Positions 7,471 to 33,900 of a stretch of 41,723 bases of DNA are shown in pieces. Position 1 is the first letter of the stretch. Each line of letters begins with the position of its first letter. The position numbers and the translations under genes are program-made. The DNA is from an uncultured Bacteroidales bacterium (GTDB taxonomy: Bacteria > Bacteroidota > Bacteroidia > Bacteroidales > Muribaculaceae): NCBI GenBank assembly GCA_947072905.1, contig CAMTKF010000021.1, forward strand, positions 1 to 41,723, read 5' to 3'. A model generated the notes under the pieces. The model saw only the letters and a program-made list of their open reading frames with translations. It had not been told where the DNA came from and did no database searches.

Positions 7471-7920
7471 ATGAAACGTATTTTCCTATTCCTTTGCGTG
7501 GCTCTTTTTGCCGCAGTGGCTGTTATGGCCCAGAATCCTATACGCTGGCGTATGACCGTGAAAATGACATCAGAAACCGAGGGTGTCATCACTCTGCGTG
7601 CTCTTGTCGACGAGGGTTGGCATCTCTACGGCACACAGCTGCCAGAGGATGGACCCAAGCCTACTAAGATTTCGTTCACTGATTCTCAAAATATAAGCCT
7701 TGTAGGGAAACTCACACCCTCGGTGGCTCCCAAAACAGTAAACGACCCCATGTTTGAGATGAAACTCAACTGGTGGGATGCCAATGTGAATTTCACCCAG
7801 CGTTTCAAACTCAATAAGCGCGAAGGTGCCAAGGTGGTGGCTAATGTAAGCTATATGGCATGCAATGACCAGAACTGCCAACCGCCCAAGAATCAGACTT
7901 TAACCTACGTTTTTAAATAA
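7471..7920 (+). CDS. Stand-alone DsbD N-terminal-domain protein (periplasmic)
   Basis: The protein has 149 residues with a signal peptide (cleavage after VMAQ region, about residue 21) and one domain homologous to the N-terminal, periplasmic domain of DsbD. The redox pair Cys131/Cys136 is in SYMACNDQNCQPP, the position of the disulfide-exchanging pair in nDsbD. The sequence ends right after this domain, with no membrane part. It lies 9 bases before full-length dsbD, whose own N-terminal domain resembles it closely (EGWHLYG and EGWHIYG, ACNDQNC and ACTDKSC). This suggests tandem domain duplication. It may pass electrons from DsbD to a periplasmic client, or be an extra DsbD substrate; this is inference. 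Confidence 0.85.
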   Translation: MKRIFLFLCVALFAAVAVMAQNPIRWRMTVKMTSETEGVITLRALVDEGWHLYGTQLPEDGPKPTKISFTDSQNISLVGKLTPSVAPKTVNDPMFEMKLNWWDANVNFTQRFKLNKREGAKVVANVSYMACNDQNCQPPKNQTLTYVFK

Positions 7921-13240: not shown

Positions 13241-14190
13241 ATATGACATCCGGCAGGATGTATGCAAATACCGTAACCGTGTATGCACGACCGTAGGGAG
13301 GGCATGCACGGAAAGGTGGACACAAGATATTGGCATCCGCCAAGGATGCAGCACAGGAGTCCGGGGACAATAAGACGGCTCAGCGGATGTCGCTGTGGCC
13401 TATGCCGCATCCTGTCGGATGCCATCTGTGTATGCGTGCTTACCCGGCATGCCCTCCCTATGGTCGTGCATACCGGGTTACGGTGTGGCAGGCTTCCTTG
13501 ACGGAAGCCATATTCTTGATAACAAGGATGTTTGGCATGATATAACTACACCGAATCTGACGCGATGTATCTTCCGCTATCGGAATATGACATCCGGCAG
13601 GATGTCTGTGAATTAGTAGCCGGGTATGCACGCGCGTAGGTGTAACCGAAGCGCAGGGCATGCCCGGTAAGCGTATTAAAAAGCAAAGGCATTCGCAGAA
13701 AGCCGATTATACATGCGACCCACATATATAGACGGCTTTTTACGAATGCCTTTGGTTTGGGTGCGACCGTCCGGGCATGCCCTCCCTACGGTCGTGCATA
13801 CCCGGCTACTAGCTTTCAGGCTTCCTTCGGATGCCATCTTACAGATAACCCCGGGGGCGGATGATGCTGTGTGCGCAATTGCCTATGCTGCATCCTGTCG
13901 GATGCCATCTATGTATGCGTACTACCCGGCATGCTCTGCGCTACGGCTACGCCTGCGCGTGCATAGACATCCTTGGAGGATGTCATATTCTTGGGAGCGC
14001 AATCGGAGCGGATTGTGATACAGCACTTATATCTACAAGATGCACTGCGGACTAACATCAATGTTATCGGGAATATGACATCCGGCAGGATGTCTGCAAA
14101 TACCGTAACCGTGTATGCACGACCGCAGGGAGGGCATGCACGGCAGGCCGTCCAAAGAGTATAGGCATCCGGAGGATGCAGCATAAGAAT
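13241..14190. repeat. Dispersed palindromic repeat, cluster B (six cores)
   Basis: This stretch of about 950 bases has no credible gene. It holds six cores of the GCATGCCCTCCCT..GGTCGTGCATACCGGG type, in mixed orientation: about 13262-13312 (reverse), 13440-13490 (forward), 13615-13672 (reverse), 13765-13812 (forward), 13920-13965 (forward) and 14100-14148 (reverse). Small hairpins accompany them: GACATCC..GGATGT (13244, 13588, 14078), GGCTTCC..GGAAGCC (near 13490), GCATCC..GGATGC (near 13410 and 13890). The TTCGCAGAAAGCCGATT module of cluster A recurs in reverse near 13690 and, diverged, near 13730. It lies between convergent topB (with the ncRNA) and tsf. Confidence 0.85.
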
Positions 14191-28518: not shown

Positions 28519-28735
28519 AACCATAGTGTCATCCGCAGGATACAGCATAGGTGGCTGTGGTTATAACCACACCATCATATTACCAATACTTTATGATACA
28601 TCTGTTCCCGTCAATATGGCTTCCGCAAGGAAGCCTGCCACACCGTAACCCGGCATGCACGACCGTAGGGAGGGCATGCCGGGCAGGTAATACGCCAAAG
28701 GTTGGCATCCGCCAGGATGCGGTATATGAGTCCGG
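28519..28735. repeat. Dispersed palindromic repeat, cluster C (one core)
   Basis: One core in reverse orientation: CCCGGCATGC (28649-28658) and GCATGCCGGG (28674-28683) form a perfect 10-bp stem with a 15-base loop. It is flanked by GGCTTCC/GGAAGCC (28618-28624, 28629-28635) and GCATCC/GGATGC (28705-28710, 28715-28720). It lies between the OmpA-type gene and the promoter of the peptide cluster. Confidence 0.85.
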
Positions 28736-28785
28736 ACACATATATACCGAAAACTTTGCATAAAACACAAAAAAATTCACAAATA

Positions 28786-28817
28786 TTTGTAGATTAAAAA
28801 AATAATGTATAAATTTG
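28786..28817 (+). promoter_or_regulatory. Promoter of the CXXX peptide / Tat operon
   Basis: TTTG (28786-28789) and TAAATTTG (28810-28817) are 20 bases apart, an exact match to the Bacteroidetes consensus. The first downstream gene begins at 29202, giving a leader of about 380 bases. Confidence 0.75.
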
Positions 28818-28823
28818 CCGAAG

Positions 28824-29201
28824 TTAACGCTTACCGAAGCCGACCAAGGGATAAGGGAGCGGGACACATTTACAGGCTTGCCGGAGGGCAGCCAATACAT
28901 AATTAAAAAGCGTTTATCTACGCTTATTCTTGACCCATAGGAATCTCGCAAATTCTCTAATCATAGTCAAGAATGTAGCAACGGTAGATGTCTTTCGGGT
29001 ATGATACTCTATCGGAGGTTGCTTTGTGCGATCTCTGTTCAACATATCATACAGCGTGAGGCTTCGGCGTTGCTCTTTCTACTATGATGGGCAATGCGAG
29101 AGCCTCTATGGGTGGATTGAGCAACTGATACAGGCTTTCACGCTTTTTTTATATACCAATCAGTCCAATCCGGAAAGCCTATAGGACATGATGGTGAAAT
29201 C
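28824..29201 (+). promoter_or_regulatory. Long leader with several hairpins upstream of the peptide gene
   Basis: The roughly 380 bases hold no convincing gene. A 40-codon open stretch at 28815-28939 lacks a usable start. Inverted repeats are ATTCTTGAC/GTCAAGAAT (28926-28934, 28966-28974), AGCAAC/GTTGCT (28977-28982, 29018-29023), and a two-part stem GAGGCT/AGCCTC (29058-29063, 29101-29106) enclosing GCGTTGC/GCAATGC (29067-29073, 29091-29097). A T-run lies at about 29143-29149. It could be a regulatory leader or a separate small RNA; I recognise no known riboswitch class. Confidence 0.4.
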
Positions 29202-29483
29202 ATGAAACTAAACAAGAATGAAGAACTCCAATCTCGACGCGAGTTCTTTAAAAGAGCAGCCAAAGGCGCTCTTCCCATTCTGGGTGCAATTGCATTGGCA
29301 AATATGCCTATTATAGCCAATGCCGGTGAATCTGCAATGGGCTGTAGCAAGGGGTGTTATACCGGTTGCAGCAATACATGTAAAGGCGGCTGCAGCTATG
29401 GCTGCGGCTCAACATGTAGCGGAAAGTGTATTGGTTCTTGCAATGCGACGTGTATGAACTCGTGTTACAAGGGTGCAAAATAA
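29202..29483 (+). CDS. CXXX-repeat peptide precursor with twin-arginine signal
   Basis: The product has 93 residues. Residues 11-17 (SRREFFK) match the Tat motif S-R-R-x-F-L-K almost exactly. A hydrophobic region (AALPILG-like, 22-38) and the signal-peptidase site ANA/GES at 39-44 follow. The predicted mature part has cysteines at 48, 52, 56, 60, 64, 68, 72, 76, 80, 84 and 88, so 11 cysteines exactly every fourth residue, with Gly, Ser, Thr, Asn and Lys between. This is the CXXX-repeat type of radical SAM target. It is probably modified in the cytoplasm and exported by Tat, with the signal acting as leader. The start ATG is the only sensible one. Mature structure and activity are unknown. Confidence 0.88.
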   Translation: MKLNKNEELQSRREFFKRAAKGALPILGAIALANMPIIANAGESAMGCSKGCYTGCSNTCKGGCSYGCGSTCSGKCIGSCNATCMNSCYKGAK

Positions 29484-29508
29484 TCTATTTAGTATCCACA
29501 TCGTTTCA

Positions 29509-29545
29509 AAATATTGGAGTATATGATATCTATGCTCCAATATTT
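29509..29545 (+). promoter_or_regulatory. Hairpin between precursor and maturase genes
   Basis: AAATATTGGAG (29509-29519) pairs perfectly with CTCCAATATTT (29535-29545), 15-base loop, no strong T-run. It lies in the only large gap (138 bases) of the operon. It may protect or partly end the precursor message so that more peptide than enzyme is made. Confidence 0.6.
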
Positions 29546-29621
29546 AGCCTATTGTTATTAAAAGATTATATTTACACAGTTATCCAATATAACAATCCAA
29601 CAACAGTAACTCATCTTACAA

Positions 29622-30842
29622 ATGGAAGAATATAAAGAAATCGCGCGTAGTTGGGAAGAAAATGTAGCGAGGAACATAACATTCATCGTTACAAAAGATT
29701 GTCAACTTGCATGTAAATATTGTTATCTTGTAGGAAAGAACGAGACCGAAAGAATGCCGTGGCCTATTGCAAAAAAGGCAATTGACTATATCTTAAAGCA
29801 TGAATCAGAATATTCCGAGAAGTCTGTAATATGGGACTTTATCGGAGGCGAACCATTTTTAGAGATTGATCTTATTGACAGAATATGCGACTATTTGAAA
29901 ACCGAGATGTTTAGACTTAATCATCATTGGTTTAATTCATATAGATTTAGCTTTTCAACCAATGGAATTAATTATGATTCCGAAAAGGTTCAAAAGTTTA
30001 TTGCAAAAAACAAAAATCATCTATCAATTGGAATAACTATTGATGGAACGAAAGCAAAACACGATTTAAATCGAATATGGAAGGGTATAACGCCTGAAAA
30101 AGGTAGTTATGAAGAAGTTGTTAAAAACATTCCATTATGGCTTGAACAGTTCCCTTTTTCTGGTACAAAAGTAACGATCAGTTCAGAAGACATCAAATAT
30201 ATAACAGAAAGTGTTAAACACCTATATGAGTTAGGAATCCATGAAGTAAACATCAATGTGGTATATGAGGATGTTTGGAAAACAGGAGATGATGAGCTAT
30301 TCGAAAATCAGCTAATAGAATTGGCTGATTGGATAATAGACAATGAATATTACAAAGAATATTCATGTTCATTCTTTAGCGAAAAGATTGGTAAGCCGTT
30401 AGATTCTGTTTTAGATAACGGCAATTGGTGTGGTGCCGGAAAAATGCTTGCTATAGATGCCCATGGCAATTTCTATCCTTGTACTCGCTTTGCGTCCTAT
30501 TCTTTACGATCAAAAAAGCCAATAATTATTGGTAACGTTTATGATGGTATTGATAAAAACAAGCTTCGTCCATTTCTTACTTTGGATCGTACGACACAAA
30601 GTCCACGTAAATGCATAGATTGTGAAGTTGCAAGTGGTTGCGCTTGGTGTCAAGGCGAGAACTATGATGCAGCTGATACAGATACGATATACCAGCGCTC
30701 AACCGCAATCTGCAAAATGCATAAAGCTCGTGTTCGTGCCAATAATTATTATTGGAACAAGTTATTCAATAAGTTAGAACAAGAGGGACTTCGCGAGCAG
30801 TACGAGAAAAACAAAAAATCAAACCACATAGAACCTTGTTAA
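29622..30842 (+). CDS. Radical SAM/SPASM peptide maturase, CXXX-repeat target type
   Basis: The protein has 406 residues. The radical SAM cluster is Cys27-x3-Cys31-x2-Cys34 (CQLACKYC), followed by the GGEPF motif (FIGGEPFLEI) that binds S-adenosylmethionine and by SIGITIDGT. A C-terminal SPASM domain holds seven cysteines: 270, 287, 331, 334, 340, 343 and 364. These would bind two auxiliary iron-sulfur clusters. Enzymes with this layout make thioether or carbon links in peptides. Its position next to a cysteine-repeat peptide points to that substrate. No peptide-recognition (RRE) domain is obvious. The next gene starts two bases after the stop, if its ATG is used. Confidence 0.9.
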   Translation: MEEYKEIARSWEENVARNITFIVTKDCQLACKYCYLVGKNETERMPWPIAKKAIDYILKHESEYSEKSVIWDFIGGEPFLEIDLIDRICDYLKTEMFRLNHHWFNSYRFSFSTNGINYDSEKVQKFIAKNKNHLSIGITIDGTKAKHDLNRIWKGITPEKGSYEEVVKNIPLWLEQFPFSGTKVTISSEDIKYITESVKHLYELGIHEVNINVVYEDVWKTGDDELFENQLIELADWIIDNEYYKEYSCSFFSEKIGKPLDSVLDNGNWCGAGKMLAIDAHGNFYPCTRFASYSLRSKKPIIIGNVYDGIDKNKLRPFLTLDRTTQSPRKCIDCEVASGCAWCQGENYDAADTDTIYQRSTAICKMHKARVRANNYYWNKLFNKLEQEGLREQYEKNKKSNHIEPC

Positions 30843-30844
30843 CC

Positions 30845-31807
30845 ATGTTGAAATATCTTATTGTTCAACTTGATGATACTTCGGTTTCCTTTTGTCATTA
30901 CAACAATGATAAAACAGAGCCGTGTCTGATAGACTTGGATGTTCTTAAAAAAGTTCTCTTTTGGTCGATGAAAGAGAACCTTATCGTGCAGTTCCTATAT
31001 CCTGACTATCAATTGCCAACCGATTACACGACAGTAATTTCCGGCATAGATCATGCAGATATCGTTTCTTCAACCTGCGAAGACGAAGAGCTGCTTAAAG
31101 AATCTGAGGTAGTCATTTTTGACACATGGGCTGCTATTAACTATTTCCCATTCTCCCAGAATCAAGCTTATGTAATCCGGACTTCATTTGCTGATCTATT
31201 CTCTAATGGAGCGTTCCTTAACACTATCCTCCCTAAAGTTTCAAGACTCAATGTCGTGATAACTGACATGCAGAGTTTTAATTCTGAGGTAGAAAAACAA
31301 TATTCACTATTCTTGGACAATTTTAATGAAAAAATTTACCAAGAATATAAGAATAATCACAGCGTGCAAGTCAACATCTTGACCGATAGAATGATGTTGG
31401 ATTCGATGAATAATTGCAACGCCGGTGTAGAAAGCATTACTCTTGCTCCCAATGGGAAATTCTACGTTTGCCCGGGATTCTACACAGACAATCTTGCTGA
31501 GATTGGAGATGTTGAAACTGGATTAGACATAAAGAATCCTCAGTTGTATAAATTGGATTATGCTCCAATTTGCAAAATTTGCGATGCGTGGCATTGCAAA
31601 CGATGTGTTTGGCTAAACAAGAAAACAACGATGGAAGTTAATACCCCAAGCAGGGAACAATGTGTCATTTCTCATATTGAGCGTAATGCGTCACGAAAGT
31701 TACTTTCCCAAATTCGTAAAATAGGGACATTCCGGCTCGATAATGAAATTCCGGCCATTGATTATCTTGATCCTTTTGAAAATATCATTAATAAACAATA
31801 TATATGA
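30845..31807 (+). CDS. CXXX-repeat peptide maturase partner with SPASM-like C-terminus
   Basis: The protein has about 320 residues from the ATG at 30845; a TTG at 30836 would add three. It has no CxxxCxxC near its N-terminus, so it is not itself an active radical SAM enzyme. The C-terminal part looks like a SPASM domain: Cys191 (NNCNAGVESITLAPNGKFYVC), Cys209, then Cys243, 246, 251 and 254 (CKICDAWHCKRC). This agrees with the family named CXXX repeat peptide maturase, which co-occurs with the radical SAM enzyme. A role as substrate-binding or electron-transfer partner is inferred. It overlaps the next gene by four bases. Confidence 0.8.
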   Translation: MLKYLIVQLDDTSVSFCHYNNDKTEPCLIDLDVLKKVLFWSMKENLIVQFLYPDYQLPTDYTTVISGIDHADIVSSTCEDEELLKESEVVIFDTWAAINYFPFSQNQAYVIRTSFADLFSNGAFLNTILPKVSRLNVVITDMQSFNSEVEKQYSLFLDNFNEKIYQEYKNNHSVQVNILTDRMMLDSMNNCNAGVESITLAPNGKFYVCPGFYTDNLAEIGDVETGLDIKNPQLYKLDYAPICKICDAWHCKRCVWLNKKTTMEVNTPSREQCVISHIERNASRKLLSQIRKIGTFRLDNEIPAIDYLDPFENIINKQYI

Positions 31808-32238
31808 TAAGATACCTTGCGACACTTGTTTTGGTTATTATATCACTAAGTGCTTATAGCCAAGCTCCTACAGGGATGTACGGTGAATACAAATATTCAT
31901 ATACAATAGAATCCAATGGAGACATAATCGAGCGCACTACGTTCCCTCGTATTCGACCAGTAGTTTTTACTGCAAACTTTGGATTTGTCCAATCTACAGC
32001 AAAATATAATTATATGGGGATTGGAGGGGAATGGTTTCCATCTACAGACTTCGCTTGGGCTGGTTTTCAAAATGGATGGTATGTTTATACTTATCGCTTG
32101 GGTACACAATATGGATATTTCTTAATTTCAAAAGATTATAACACTGTACGAATTCAAGAGTCATTTTTTAACGGAATGACCGATGTATATACCCGTTGTG
32201 ATCCAAATGAAGAAATGAACAACGCTCCAACTTATTAA
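31804..32238 (+). CDS. Secreted small protein of unknown function in the CXXX cluster
   Basis: The product has 144 residues. Residues 1-20 are a Sec-type signal peptide (MIRYLATLVLVIISLSAYSQ). The mature part is rich in Tyr, Phe, Trp and Gly (YGEYKYSYTI, NGWYVYTYRLGTQYGYF), suggesting a small beta-sheet domain. I recognise no family. It overlaps the preceding gene (ATGA), and the next starts five bases later, so it is part of the operon. It has one cysteine, near the end. It could bind or protect the exported peptide in the periplasm; that is speculation. Confidence 0.75.
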   Translation: MIRYLATLVLVIISLSAYSQAPTGMYGEYKYSYTIESNGDIIERTTFPRIRPVVFTANFGFVQSTAKYNYMGIGGEWFPSTDFAWAGFQNGWYVYTYRLGTQYGYFLISKDYNTVRIQESFFNGMTDVYTRCDPNEEMNNAPTY

Positions 32239-32243
32239 TAACT

Positions 32244-32516
32244 ATGAATAAAATAATCGGAACTGTAACAGAACAGGAGCGAGATGAGATTCAGGCTCTT
32301 TTCGAAAGAATAAATGGCCTGAACGAACTCGCCAAAATACTTACTGCTGATAATAACGAGTTGTACGAACGTCTCGTTAAAGATCTGTCAGAAACTACTG
32401 CCAAATTCCAAAACTGGTGGAATACAATGTCAAGCAAGTACAGCTGGGAAAGTGCTGAAGATGGAAATTGGGAAATCAATTTCGAAACTTGCGAAATCTA
32501 TTTAGTTACACCGTAA
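32244..32516 (+). CDS. CXXX-repeat peptide modification system accessory protein
   Basis: The product has 90 residues, cytoplasmic, with a helical N-terminal two thirds ([20 protein letters not shown], then [18 protein letters not shown]) and a Trp-rich end ([20 protein letters not shown]). It resembles the small CXXX-repeat peptide modification system protein known from similar clusters, whose function is not known. A precursor-binding role would make sense because the maturase has no visible recognition domain. Its stop shares one base with the tatA start (TAATG). Confidence 0.75.
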
Positions 32517-32761
32517 TGATACCGTGCATGATTGGCGCTACTGAGATAATTCTCATAAGCGCAGTGATCCTACTTATTTTTGGAGGTAAAAAACTCCCCG
32601 AACTCATGAAAGGCATGGGCAAAGGCGTAAAAAGCTTTAAAGAAGGGATGAATGAACCAACAGAAGAGGAAATGAACCGTAGGGTCGAGGAAGAAATACA
32701 AAGACGTGTTGATAAACAACTGAACAATCAGCCGGAACAAAATAGAAGTGATAATGAGTGA
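32516..32761 (+). CDS. tatA: Twin-arginine translocase subunit TatA
   Basis: The product has 81 residues. The start [15 protein letters not shown] leads into a single membrane helix ([14 protein letters not shown]). The amphipathic helix with the signature [20 protein letters not shown] follows, and then a charged tail ([15 protein letters not shown]). A longer frame from 32468 overlaps the upstream gene; the ATG at 32516 is the likely start. It overlaps tatC by eight bases. There is no TatB-like second protein, the usual state in Bacteroidetes. Confidence 0.93.
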
Positions 32762-33548
32762 GCCGGCTGAAAATAGCGGACTTTTATCGTTTGGAGAGCA
32801 TCTTGATGTTTTGCGCAAGATGCTCTTCAGAATGCTGATGGTCGTTCTTGCCATCAGTTGTGTCATATTTTGTTTCAAATCAGAAACGTTCTCTATAATC
32901 CTGGCTCCCCATAAGTCAAATTTCGTAACATTCAGTCTTATAGAGAATTTATTAAATTCAAATGGGATAGACTTCCATTTTACAGAATATAATATTCCTC
33001 TGATAAATACCGAACTCTCTTCTCAATTCATGACACATATCACAATGTCATGTATATTAGCCCTTTTGCTTGCATCTCCTTACATATTATTTGAACTATT
33101 CCGCTTCATAGCACCTGCATTGTACGAAAATGAAAAGAAATATTCTTATGTGGTAGCAGGTATCATATATGTGTTATTCTTCATGGGGCTGTTGATGAGT
33201 TATTTCGTGCTTTTTCCCATCTCATTCCAATTTCTTGCCACTTATCAGGTTGATGAAGAAATTGTGAATACAATCACACTCGATTCGTACATTACTACTT
33301 TTACAACTTTGGCTTTTATGATGGGGGTTGTATTTCAGTTGCCTGTAATAACATTCGTTTTGGGTAAGATGGGATTTATTGATGCAGAAATGCTAAGACG
33401 ATACCGACCCTACGCGCTTATAATAATCATGATCACAGCCGCTGTGATAACACCTCCCGACATTTTCACCCTCGTATTAGTCACAATTCCGATTTATGGG
33501 CTGTACGAACTGAGTATATTGGTTCTTAAAAAATGGGCAAAAAGCTAA
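32754..33548 (+). CDS. tatC: Twin-arginine translocase subunit TatC
   Basis: The product has 264 residues with six predicted membrane helices. The N-terminal motif [14 protein letters not shown] matches the F-x-x-H-L-x-E-L-R element that reads the twin-arginine signal, with V in place of the usual second [13 protein letters not shown] and [13 protein letters not shown] are conserved regions. A GTG at 32748 would add two residues; the ATG at 32754 is preferred. It ends the operon. TatC recognises signals like that of the peptide at 29202. Confidence 0.93.
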
Positions 33549-33589
33549 TCACTCTCATTTTTTTGCGATAATGCCCGGCCAGTGAGTAA

Positions 33590-33900
33590 CCACGGTTACC
33601 TATGCTGCATCCTGCGGATGCCACTATTGGGGGCGTGCCTGTCCGGGCATGCCCTCGCTGCGCTCGTGCATACCGGGTTACGGTGTGACAGACATCCTCA
33701 GCGGATGTCATATTTTTGGATGCCGATGTGTCCGGACTTATATGCCGCATCCTTGTCGGATGCCAACTGCCTGCCCGGCATGCCCTCCCTACGGTCGTGC
33801 ATACCGGGTTACGGTGTGACAGACATCCTCAGCGGATGTCATATTCTTGGATGCCGATATATCCGGACTCTTATGCCACAGGATGCAGCATAGGCTGCTG
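33590..33900. repeat. Dispersed palindromic repeat, cluster D (two cores in direct repeat)
   Basis: Two forward copies, 33646-33738 and 33777-33869, are about 93 bases each with a period of 131 and differ at few positions. Each has the core GCATGCCCTC..CGTGCATACCGGG, then GACATCC/GGATGTC, then TTGGATGCCGAT. GCATCC/GGATGC hairpins precede each copy (33608, 33748). It lies between the convergent tatC and tricorn-type peptidase genes. Confidence 0.88.

Follow-up and report, generated by a model that had tools for sequence, protein, structure and literature searches.

We describe a seven-gene operon of an uncultured Bacteroidales bacterium (Muribaculaceae; assembly GCA_947072905.1) that combines genes for the maturation of a Cys-rich peptide with genes of the twin-arginine translocation (Tat) pathway, and that is likely to represent a variant, new in its mode of transport, of a known family of ribosomally synthesized and post-translationally modified peptides (RiPPs), in which a maturation complex is coupled to a dedicated minimal Tat translocon. 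The operon lies in contig CAMTKF010000021.1, whose 41,723 nucleotides are hereafter called the window, and consists of seven open reading frames (ORFs) on the plus strand between positions 29202 and 33548, all read from the sequence with an ATG start and a stop codon. The first encodes a precursor peptide of 93 residues with a Tat-type signal and a Cys-X3 repeat core (29202-29483). It is followed by genes for a radical S-adenosylmethionine (SAM)/SPASM peptide maturase (29622-30842, 406 residues), a pseudo-radical-SAM/SPASM partner (30845-31807, 320 residues), a secreted protein in a variable slot (31804-32238, 144 residues), an accessory maturation protein (32244-32516, 90 residues), TatA (32516-32761, 81 residues) and TatC (32754-33548, 264 residues), the latter belonging to an operon-specific group. 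This is the gene order and location given in a preliminary description of the window, and the predominance of overlaps after the maturase is confirmed as well, since three of the five junctions 3' of this gene overlap (by 4, 1 and 8 nt) and the remaining two are gaps of 2 and 5 nt. The assignment to a known CXXX-repeat maturation family also holds: the precursor (TIGR04117, 56.3 bits, cut-off 50), the maturase (TIGR04115, 627.2 bits, cut-off 350), the partner (TIGR04119, 233.6 bits, cut-off 150) and the accessory protein (TIGR04116, 102.8 bits, cut-off 50) each exceed the curated cut-off of NCBIfam "CXXX repeat" families. The repeat model TIGR04114 gave 12.4 bits on the precursor, under its cut-off of 20.

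Direct reading of the precursor shows the motif SRREFFKR followed by an uncharged stretch ending in ANA, which agrees with the pattern of Tat substrates, namely S/T-R-R-x-F-L/F-K, an uncharged stretch and a cleavage site. The general Tat profiles (TIGR01409 and those of Pfam) do not call this signal. The twin-arginine precursor of the preliminary description is thus borne out by the motif and by its conservation in relatives, on which the Tat call is based because these profiles are silent. For the relatives, 180 Cys-repeat ORFs near related maturases were picked by pattern and 11 of them were removed by hand as chance matches, leaving 169 precursor-like ORFs; 2599 mechanical ORFs of at least 100 residues served as background. 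A loose twin-arginine (RR) motif, RR.[FGAVML][LITMVF] before the repeat, is present in 158/169 precursor-like ORFs compared with 95/2599 background ORFs, and the strict motif [STNDKGHQ]RR.F[FLIVM] in 153/169 compared with 7/2599. One loose match, L090 -1648 (L numbers designate loci), is doubtful. The 11 ORFs that do not match comprise two chance-like ones (L112 -5859, L140 4046), two cut by a contig end (L083, L122), two with RR in another frame (L082, L092), one variant (L112 -860), one tail of a larger protein (L142) and three of an ATP-binding cassette (ABC) type (L182-L184). The L142 case, at about position 7538 on the plus strand in Xylanibacter rarus, is an RR-free ORF that ends in Cys-X3 repeats and lies beside an RR precursor; it seems to be the C-terminal part of some larger protein.

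The signal profile built from 160 ORFs reads S (76%), R (100%), R (100%), x, F (96%), F (92%), K (81%), with L (85%) and P (91%) at positions +12 and +13, and an uncharged run of at least 13 residues was found in 147/158 RR precursor-like ORFs. Clusters with precursors carry one to six of them. It is very unlikely that the operon tatAC acts on other cellular proteins and that the peptide signal is a Sec signal containing RR by chance. The failure of the general Tat profiles to detect the signal would favour such an explanation, but it is difficult to reconcile with the frequency of the strict motif, with three RR-less clusters that possess an ABC exporter and no tatAC, and with the 144-residue secreted protein of the same operon, whose N-terminus, read directly, is Sec-like and RR-free. 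The preliminary description had listed this last protein as a secreted unknown; the gene is present, but it is not a constant part of the system, since blastp gives a single relative, 30% identical, in L055. No NCBIfam or Pfam family exceeds its cut-off on this protein.

The ends of the signals differ among the 158 RR precursor-like ORFs: 92 are AxA-like, 47 carry a lipobox by pattern and 19 show neither, although some of the latter are lipobox-like by eye (e.g. L078, L108, L123, L131). The window precursor is of the AxA kind (ANA) and lacks the lipobox cysteine. Bacteroidota lipoproteins are marked for surface export by acidic residues that follow the lipid-bearing cysteine. Since at least two acidic residues occur within the seven positions following the lipobox in 36/47 cases, the sequences suggest that about 30% of the Tat precursors give lipid-anchored products. 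Release by signal peptidase I, as first proposed, would fit the window precursor but not this lipobox-bearing fraction.

To place the operon among its relatives, 122 loci were collected: those of the 36 genomes with a maturase over the TIGR04115 cut-off in the window's family set (297 genomes), one fragment (G248), the best 80 of 458 named relatives, and five loci of the phylum set, where 6/395 genomes exceed the cut-off, the window's own included. Removal of 18 same-maturase repeats (identical maturase ends), with the window itself excluded, left 104 distinct loci; three further loci with a maturase under the cut-off (L185-L187) were mapped and excluded from the counts. A tatC gene is located downstream, on the same strand and within 8 kb, in 74/104 loci; it is absent despite sufficient room in 17, absent from the five distant loci L180-L184, and eight loci are cut by a contig end. 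With a stricter rule, demanding a stand-alone accessory gene followed by 1300 nt or more of sequence, tatC is found in 69/86. An RR precursor was found in 96/104 loci, specifically in 70/74 with tatC (three none found, one cut), 16/17 without it (one cut), 8/8 cut by contig ends and 2/5 distant ones. Hence the Tat-linked interpretation of the cluster is supported, as the pairing recurs in Bacteroidales relatives. The expectation that homologous clusters carry tatAC and twin-arginine signals holds within the Bacteroidales (tatC in 74/91, with the RR frequencies just given); outside this clade, in three distant Bacteroidota clusters (L182-L184), an Anaerococcus plasmid and 80 IMG/VR loci, tatAC is absent beside the maturase and the precursors that were read show no Tat signal. 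A second expectation, that RR is commoner where tat genes are present, is met in part: it occurs in 122/127 ORFs with operon tatC but also in 36/42 without, because Bacteroidales clusters devoid of tatAC keep RR.

The TatA and TatC of the window exceed the cut-offs of their profiles (TIGR01411, 67.3 bits, cut-off 53.9, and PF02416, 57.2 bits, for TatA; TIGR00945, 162.2 bits, cut-off 132.7, and PF00902, 204.8 bits, for TatC) and therefore belong to the TatAC translocases, with the E15 position unkept. In a tree of 121 TatC sequences (74 from operons and 47 others), all operon TatCs fall into a single group of 77 (the 74 and three more; SH-aLRT 90) with a core of 75 (SH-aLRT 95). The window genome has two TatCs, of which the non-operon one falls in a separate group of 26. 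The three additional members of the operon group are themselves tied to the system: that of L230 is identical to the operon TatC of L094, and those of L209 and L232 adjoin an accessory gene. The latter two loci (genomes G010 and G698) each combine an accessory gene with tatA and tatC and show no maturase within the stretch seen, and the L232 unit also has an RR Cys-repeat precursor alongside. In alignment columns that we take to correspond to E103 and E15 of E. coli TatC, the operon TatCs keep the equivalents of R, P and E103 in 74/74 sequences. At the E15 position, 65/74 have Val, and 62/74 have Glu one place earlier; this position is mixed in other TatCs (Glu in 19/47).

It is rather unlikely that the peptides simply use the general Tat system of the cell, the operon tatAC being non-specific and adding dosage or supplying genomes without Tat. 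Such an explanation would account for the retention of RR in the 36/42 precursor-like ORFs lacking operon tatAC, for the presence of TatC elsewhere in 17/18 genomes that combine RR precursors with a tatAC-less cluster, and for the single TatC found in 12/32 genomes with operon tatC, at the operon's place in 9/12 among the matches listed. However, 20/32 of these genomes retain a further TatC beside the operon copy, and the operon TatCs cluster together and depart from the others in a systematic way at the E15 position. Each of the 37 family-set genomes with the system has a TatC, and no TatC was found in 50/260 system-negative genomes of the family. A TatC outside the operon (20/32) is less frequent than any TatC in system-negative genomes (210/260), a difference with a Fisher p of 0.023, uncorrected for kinship and drawn from partly incomplete genomes.

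Some of the more distant relatives carry genes for another exporter. Three distant Bacteroidota clusters, L182-L184, have RR-less precursors, no tatAC and an ABC exporter gene right after the maturases, and their leaders keep the motif R/K-K-T-L-P-G, a counterpart of the conserved L-P in the Tat leaders. The simplest reading of these sequences is that the L-P element would address the maturase and RR the Tat system. Plasmid pAPRE01 of Anaerococcus prevotii carries a maturase-partner fusion, a short signal-less Cys peptide and an ABC transporter gene, again with no tatAC, so that all four cellular RR-less clusters possess ABC exporters. In the IMG/VR set (best 80 of 144 loci, L274-L353), maturases are 34-48% identical to that of the window, the tatA and tatC models gave no match, and no Tat signal was seen in the Cys-repeat proteins that were read. 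Many of the CXXX-type maturases on these viral contigs have as neighbours long Cys-repeat proteins in which no signal is evident; proteins of phages or prophages may possibly be modified by radical SAM enzymes. Since these distant relatives lack tatAC and, in the precursors read, a Tat signal, Tat looks like a lineage innovation upon an older system.

Beside the silence of the general Tat profiles, several observations weigh against a dedicated Tat route. The 17 Bacteroidales clusters without tatAC have room for it, and on the maturase tree the tatAC state changes 16 times, at least five of these changes being forced by well-supported branches; these changes amount to repeated loss or gain, so that tatAC is not obligatory. 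RR-less precursor-like proteins adjoin RR clusters (L142 and the variant in L112). The link between RR and tatC at loci with a readable precursor (tatC present/absent: 70/18 with RR, 0/3 without; Fisher p 0.011) is derived from few, related RR-less cases, with kinship ignored. Moreover, TatC found elsewhere in 17/18 genomes with tatAC-less RR clusters is not clearly above the background of 210/260 (81%), and we discarded this figure as a proof of need. TatC was found nowhere in 2/13 searched named genomes with tatAC-less clusters (G691, whose precursor is contig-cut, and G701). Finally, the change at the E15 position could possibly reflect specialized or altered signal recognition.

The maturase contains a CxxxCxxC triad (C27, C31, C34) and seven SPASM cysteines (C270, C287, C331, C334, C340, C343, C364), all invariant across ten aligned sequences. 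Its nearest solved sequence, and the sole solved relative at E up to 1e-5, is 5WGG (E 2.7e-22), which, like 5WHY, we take to be CteB. The match to the PapB family NF047865 (E 6e-58) reaches 196.6 bits for a cut-off of 340; the maturase is therefore not classed as PapB, though it may work in a PapB-like manner. A second, divergent maturase, 48% identical to that of the window, sits just upstream of the usual maturase in L040 (7753-8919, minus strand; G233). The partner, previously regarded as a SPASM-only protein, is different: the CxxxCxxC triad is absent, its SPASM cysteines (C191, C209, C243, C246, C251, C254, C273) are invariant in 46 aligned sequences, and its predicted model (mean pLDDT 92.4) has as best fold match 5WHY (TM 0.68, E 5e-11), a thioether-forming enzyme by its entry title. 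Given this match, the profile and the model indicate that the partner has a complete radical-SAM-like fold whose catalytic cluster site has been lost. Fusions of partner and accessory protein (L181), of maturase and accessory protein (L274) and of maturase and partner (Anaerococcus) were found; since all three pairs are fused somewhere, this argues for the three proteins acting as one maturation complex. The accessory protein matched solved structures no better than E 0.29 in a sequence search. We considered that it could be a chaperone of the Tat leader, as it precedes tatA and was not found in the three ABC-type genomes, and rejected this role: it is present in two IMG/VR clusters that lack tat genes (L274, L275), and other loci have it fused to the maturase or the partner, so that we read it as a part of the maturation machinery.

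The core of the precursor-like ORFs has Cys at every fourth residue, with Gly, Ser and Thr frequent in between. This composition would also suit a scaffold that carries a metal cluster or binds metal, in place of a signalling or antibacterial peptide; Tat would export it because its metal is loaded in the cytoplasm, and the usual cargo of Tat indeed carries cofactors. Such a product, which would be compatible with the proposed export route, is nevertheless unlikely: NCBIfam and Pfam scans of the seven gene products detected no family concerned with metal handling, and the nearest characterized kin of the maturation enzymes form thioether bonds, according to the 5WHY title.

The region upstream of the operon contains a predicted promoter-like site, a sequence match on the plus strand at 28786-28817 (TTTG-N20-TAAATTTG), presumably the Bacteroidales-type promoter consensus. 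The preliminary description starts at this site and names a single promoter; a structured leader RNA lying between it and the first gene had been overlooked. This element (28905-29152, plus strand, about 250 nt), identified by covariation, has a closing stem and a terminator-like terminal U-run. In 27 aligned copies, its fold comprises 49 pairs, with 94.8% of cells paired and 30 pairs with double changes; covariation is 0.475 compared with 0.220 after shuffling and at most 0.145 in slid controls. A candidate competing, antiterminator-like helix, also on the plus strand, pairs the 3' part of the leader (29132-29139) with the stretch before the start codon (29173-29180), with 83.3% of cells paired and a covariation of 0.454 (0.316 shuffled, at most 0.284 in slid controls). 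The leader has no match in Rfam. Among the 26 other copies, 25 lie upstream of a maturase on the same strand, the exception being L039. We rejected a CXXX-specific riboswitch, because the sequence-only model of the leader matches 272/297 genomes of the family, in most cases with all six of the scored candidates, and other operons are preceded by it too. An ORF starts about 35-80 nt after the leader in at least 13/30 fetched copies, CXXX operons among them, and 4/10 proteins scanned from operons behind it are BspA-type leucine-rich-repeat proteins. The whole operon is enclosed by a GC-rich, dispersed intergenic repeat, whose upstream arm (28523-28758) pairs with the downstream arms (33587-33829) in inverted orientation; the complementary arm pairs measure 60 nt (93%), 41 nt (88%), 45 nt (78%) and 85 nt (76%). 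Further pieces are located at 13283-14142, and a 28-nt piece has six matches in the window with at most three mismatches and none in shuffles. This inverted repeat might mark a cassette or permit inversion.

Taken together, these elements allow us to propose the following pathway. In the cytoplasm, the maturase, the partner and the accessory protein, assembled in one complex, would modify the Cys-X-X-X repeat core of the precursor. The modification would most likely consist of thioether crosslinks, as made by the ranthipeptide maturases that the maturase resembles. The N-terminal stretch would have a double role, serving as a twin-arginine signal and also, by virtue of its conserved L-P motif, as the leader for the complex. 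Once modified, the compact peptide would cross the inner membrane through the minimal TatAC of the operon. For the window precursor, a cut by signal peptidase I after ANA would free the peptide; for about 30% of related precursors, the lipobox would lead to a lipid-anchored and probably surface-displayed product. It seems quite possible, if slightly short of probable, that a private TatAC was recruited once by this RiPP pathway and accepts the correctly modified peptide only. The maturase leader would thus be at the same time the Tat signal, Tat quality control would prevent export before modification, and many of the products would be Tat-exported lipoproteins with radical-SAM-crosslinked Cys-rich domains on the surface of gut Bacteroidales.

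RiPPs leave cells via ABC exporters and, as seen lately, also via Sec. On the side of Tat, cofactor enzymes with maturation proteins encoded in the same operon mature in the cytoplasm and are then exported folded. The proposed system resembles them in cytoplasmic maturation before folded export, but their cargo is a large enzyme, whereas here the cargo would be a small modified peptide whose own operon includes tatAC. With the NCBIfam CXXX-repeat system, the window shares four products; the names of these families, by which alone the comparison was made, say nothing of Tat, and the Anaerococcus and phage-contig relatives differ in having no tatAC and no Tat signals in the precursors read. The ranthipeptide maturases (5WGG/5WHY and PapB, NF047865) provide the nearest solved relative of the maturase and the best fold match of the partner, but the window has an extra partner protein and a Tat signal, and the PapB cut-off is not reached. 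Bufferins and other MNIO-modified RiPPs (PMC12452194) likewise have a RiPP precursor with a cleavable export signal, but depend on Sec and MNIO enzymes, and a search of that text gave no match for Tat or twin-arginine. DAG-RiPPs, which are RiPP-lipoprotein hybrids (PMC12636315), have lipobox-type precursors, also in Bacteroidota; the text of the article gave no match for twin-arginine, Tat or radical, and in the relatives studied here the lipobox follows an RR motif. A survey of Bacteroidales RiPPs (PMC10352776) gave no match for CXXX or Tat. In the open-access full-text literature, which leaves subscription papers mostly uncovered, our searches met with no article that names these families or describes a RiPP exported by Tat, in line with the preliminary description, which knew of no CXXX peptide exported by Tat proteins of the same operon.

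If the proposal is true, the export of a RiPP by a Tat translocon of its own would add a new route to those known for this class of peptides. The operon would also offer a compact natural system for probing whether Tat checks post-translational modification. Sec signals are rare among RiPPs, and some mechanism must avert export before modification, as the bufferin article states (PMC12452194). If the reading of a private TatAC is true, Tat quality control would answer how signal-bearing RiPPs avoid such premature export. Furthermore, this peptide class is common in gut Bacteroidales, being present in 36/297 genomes of the window's family, and its products may sit on the cell surface.

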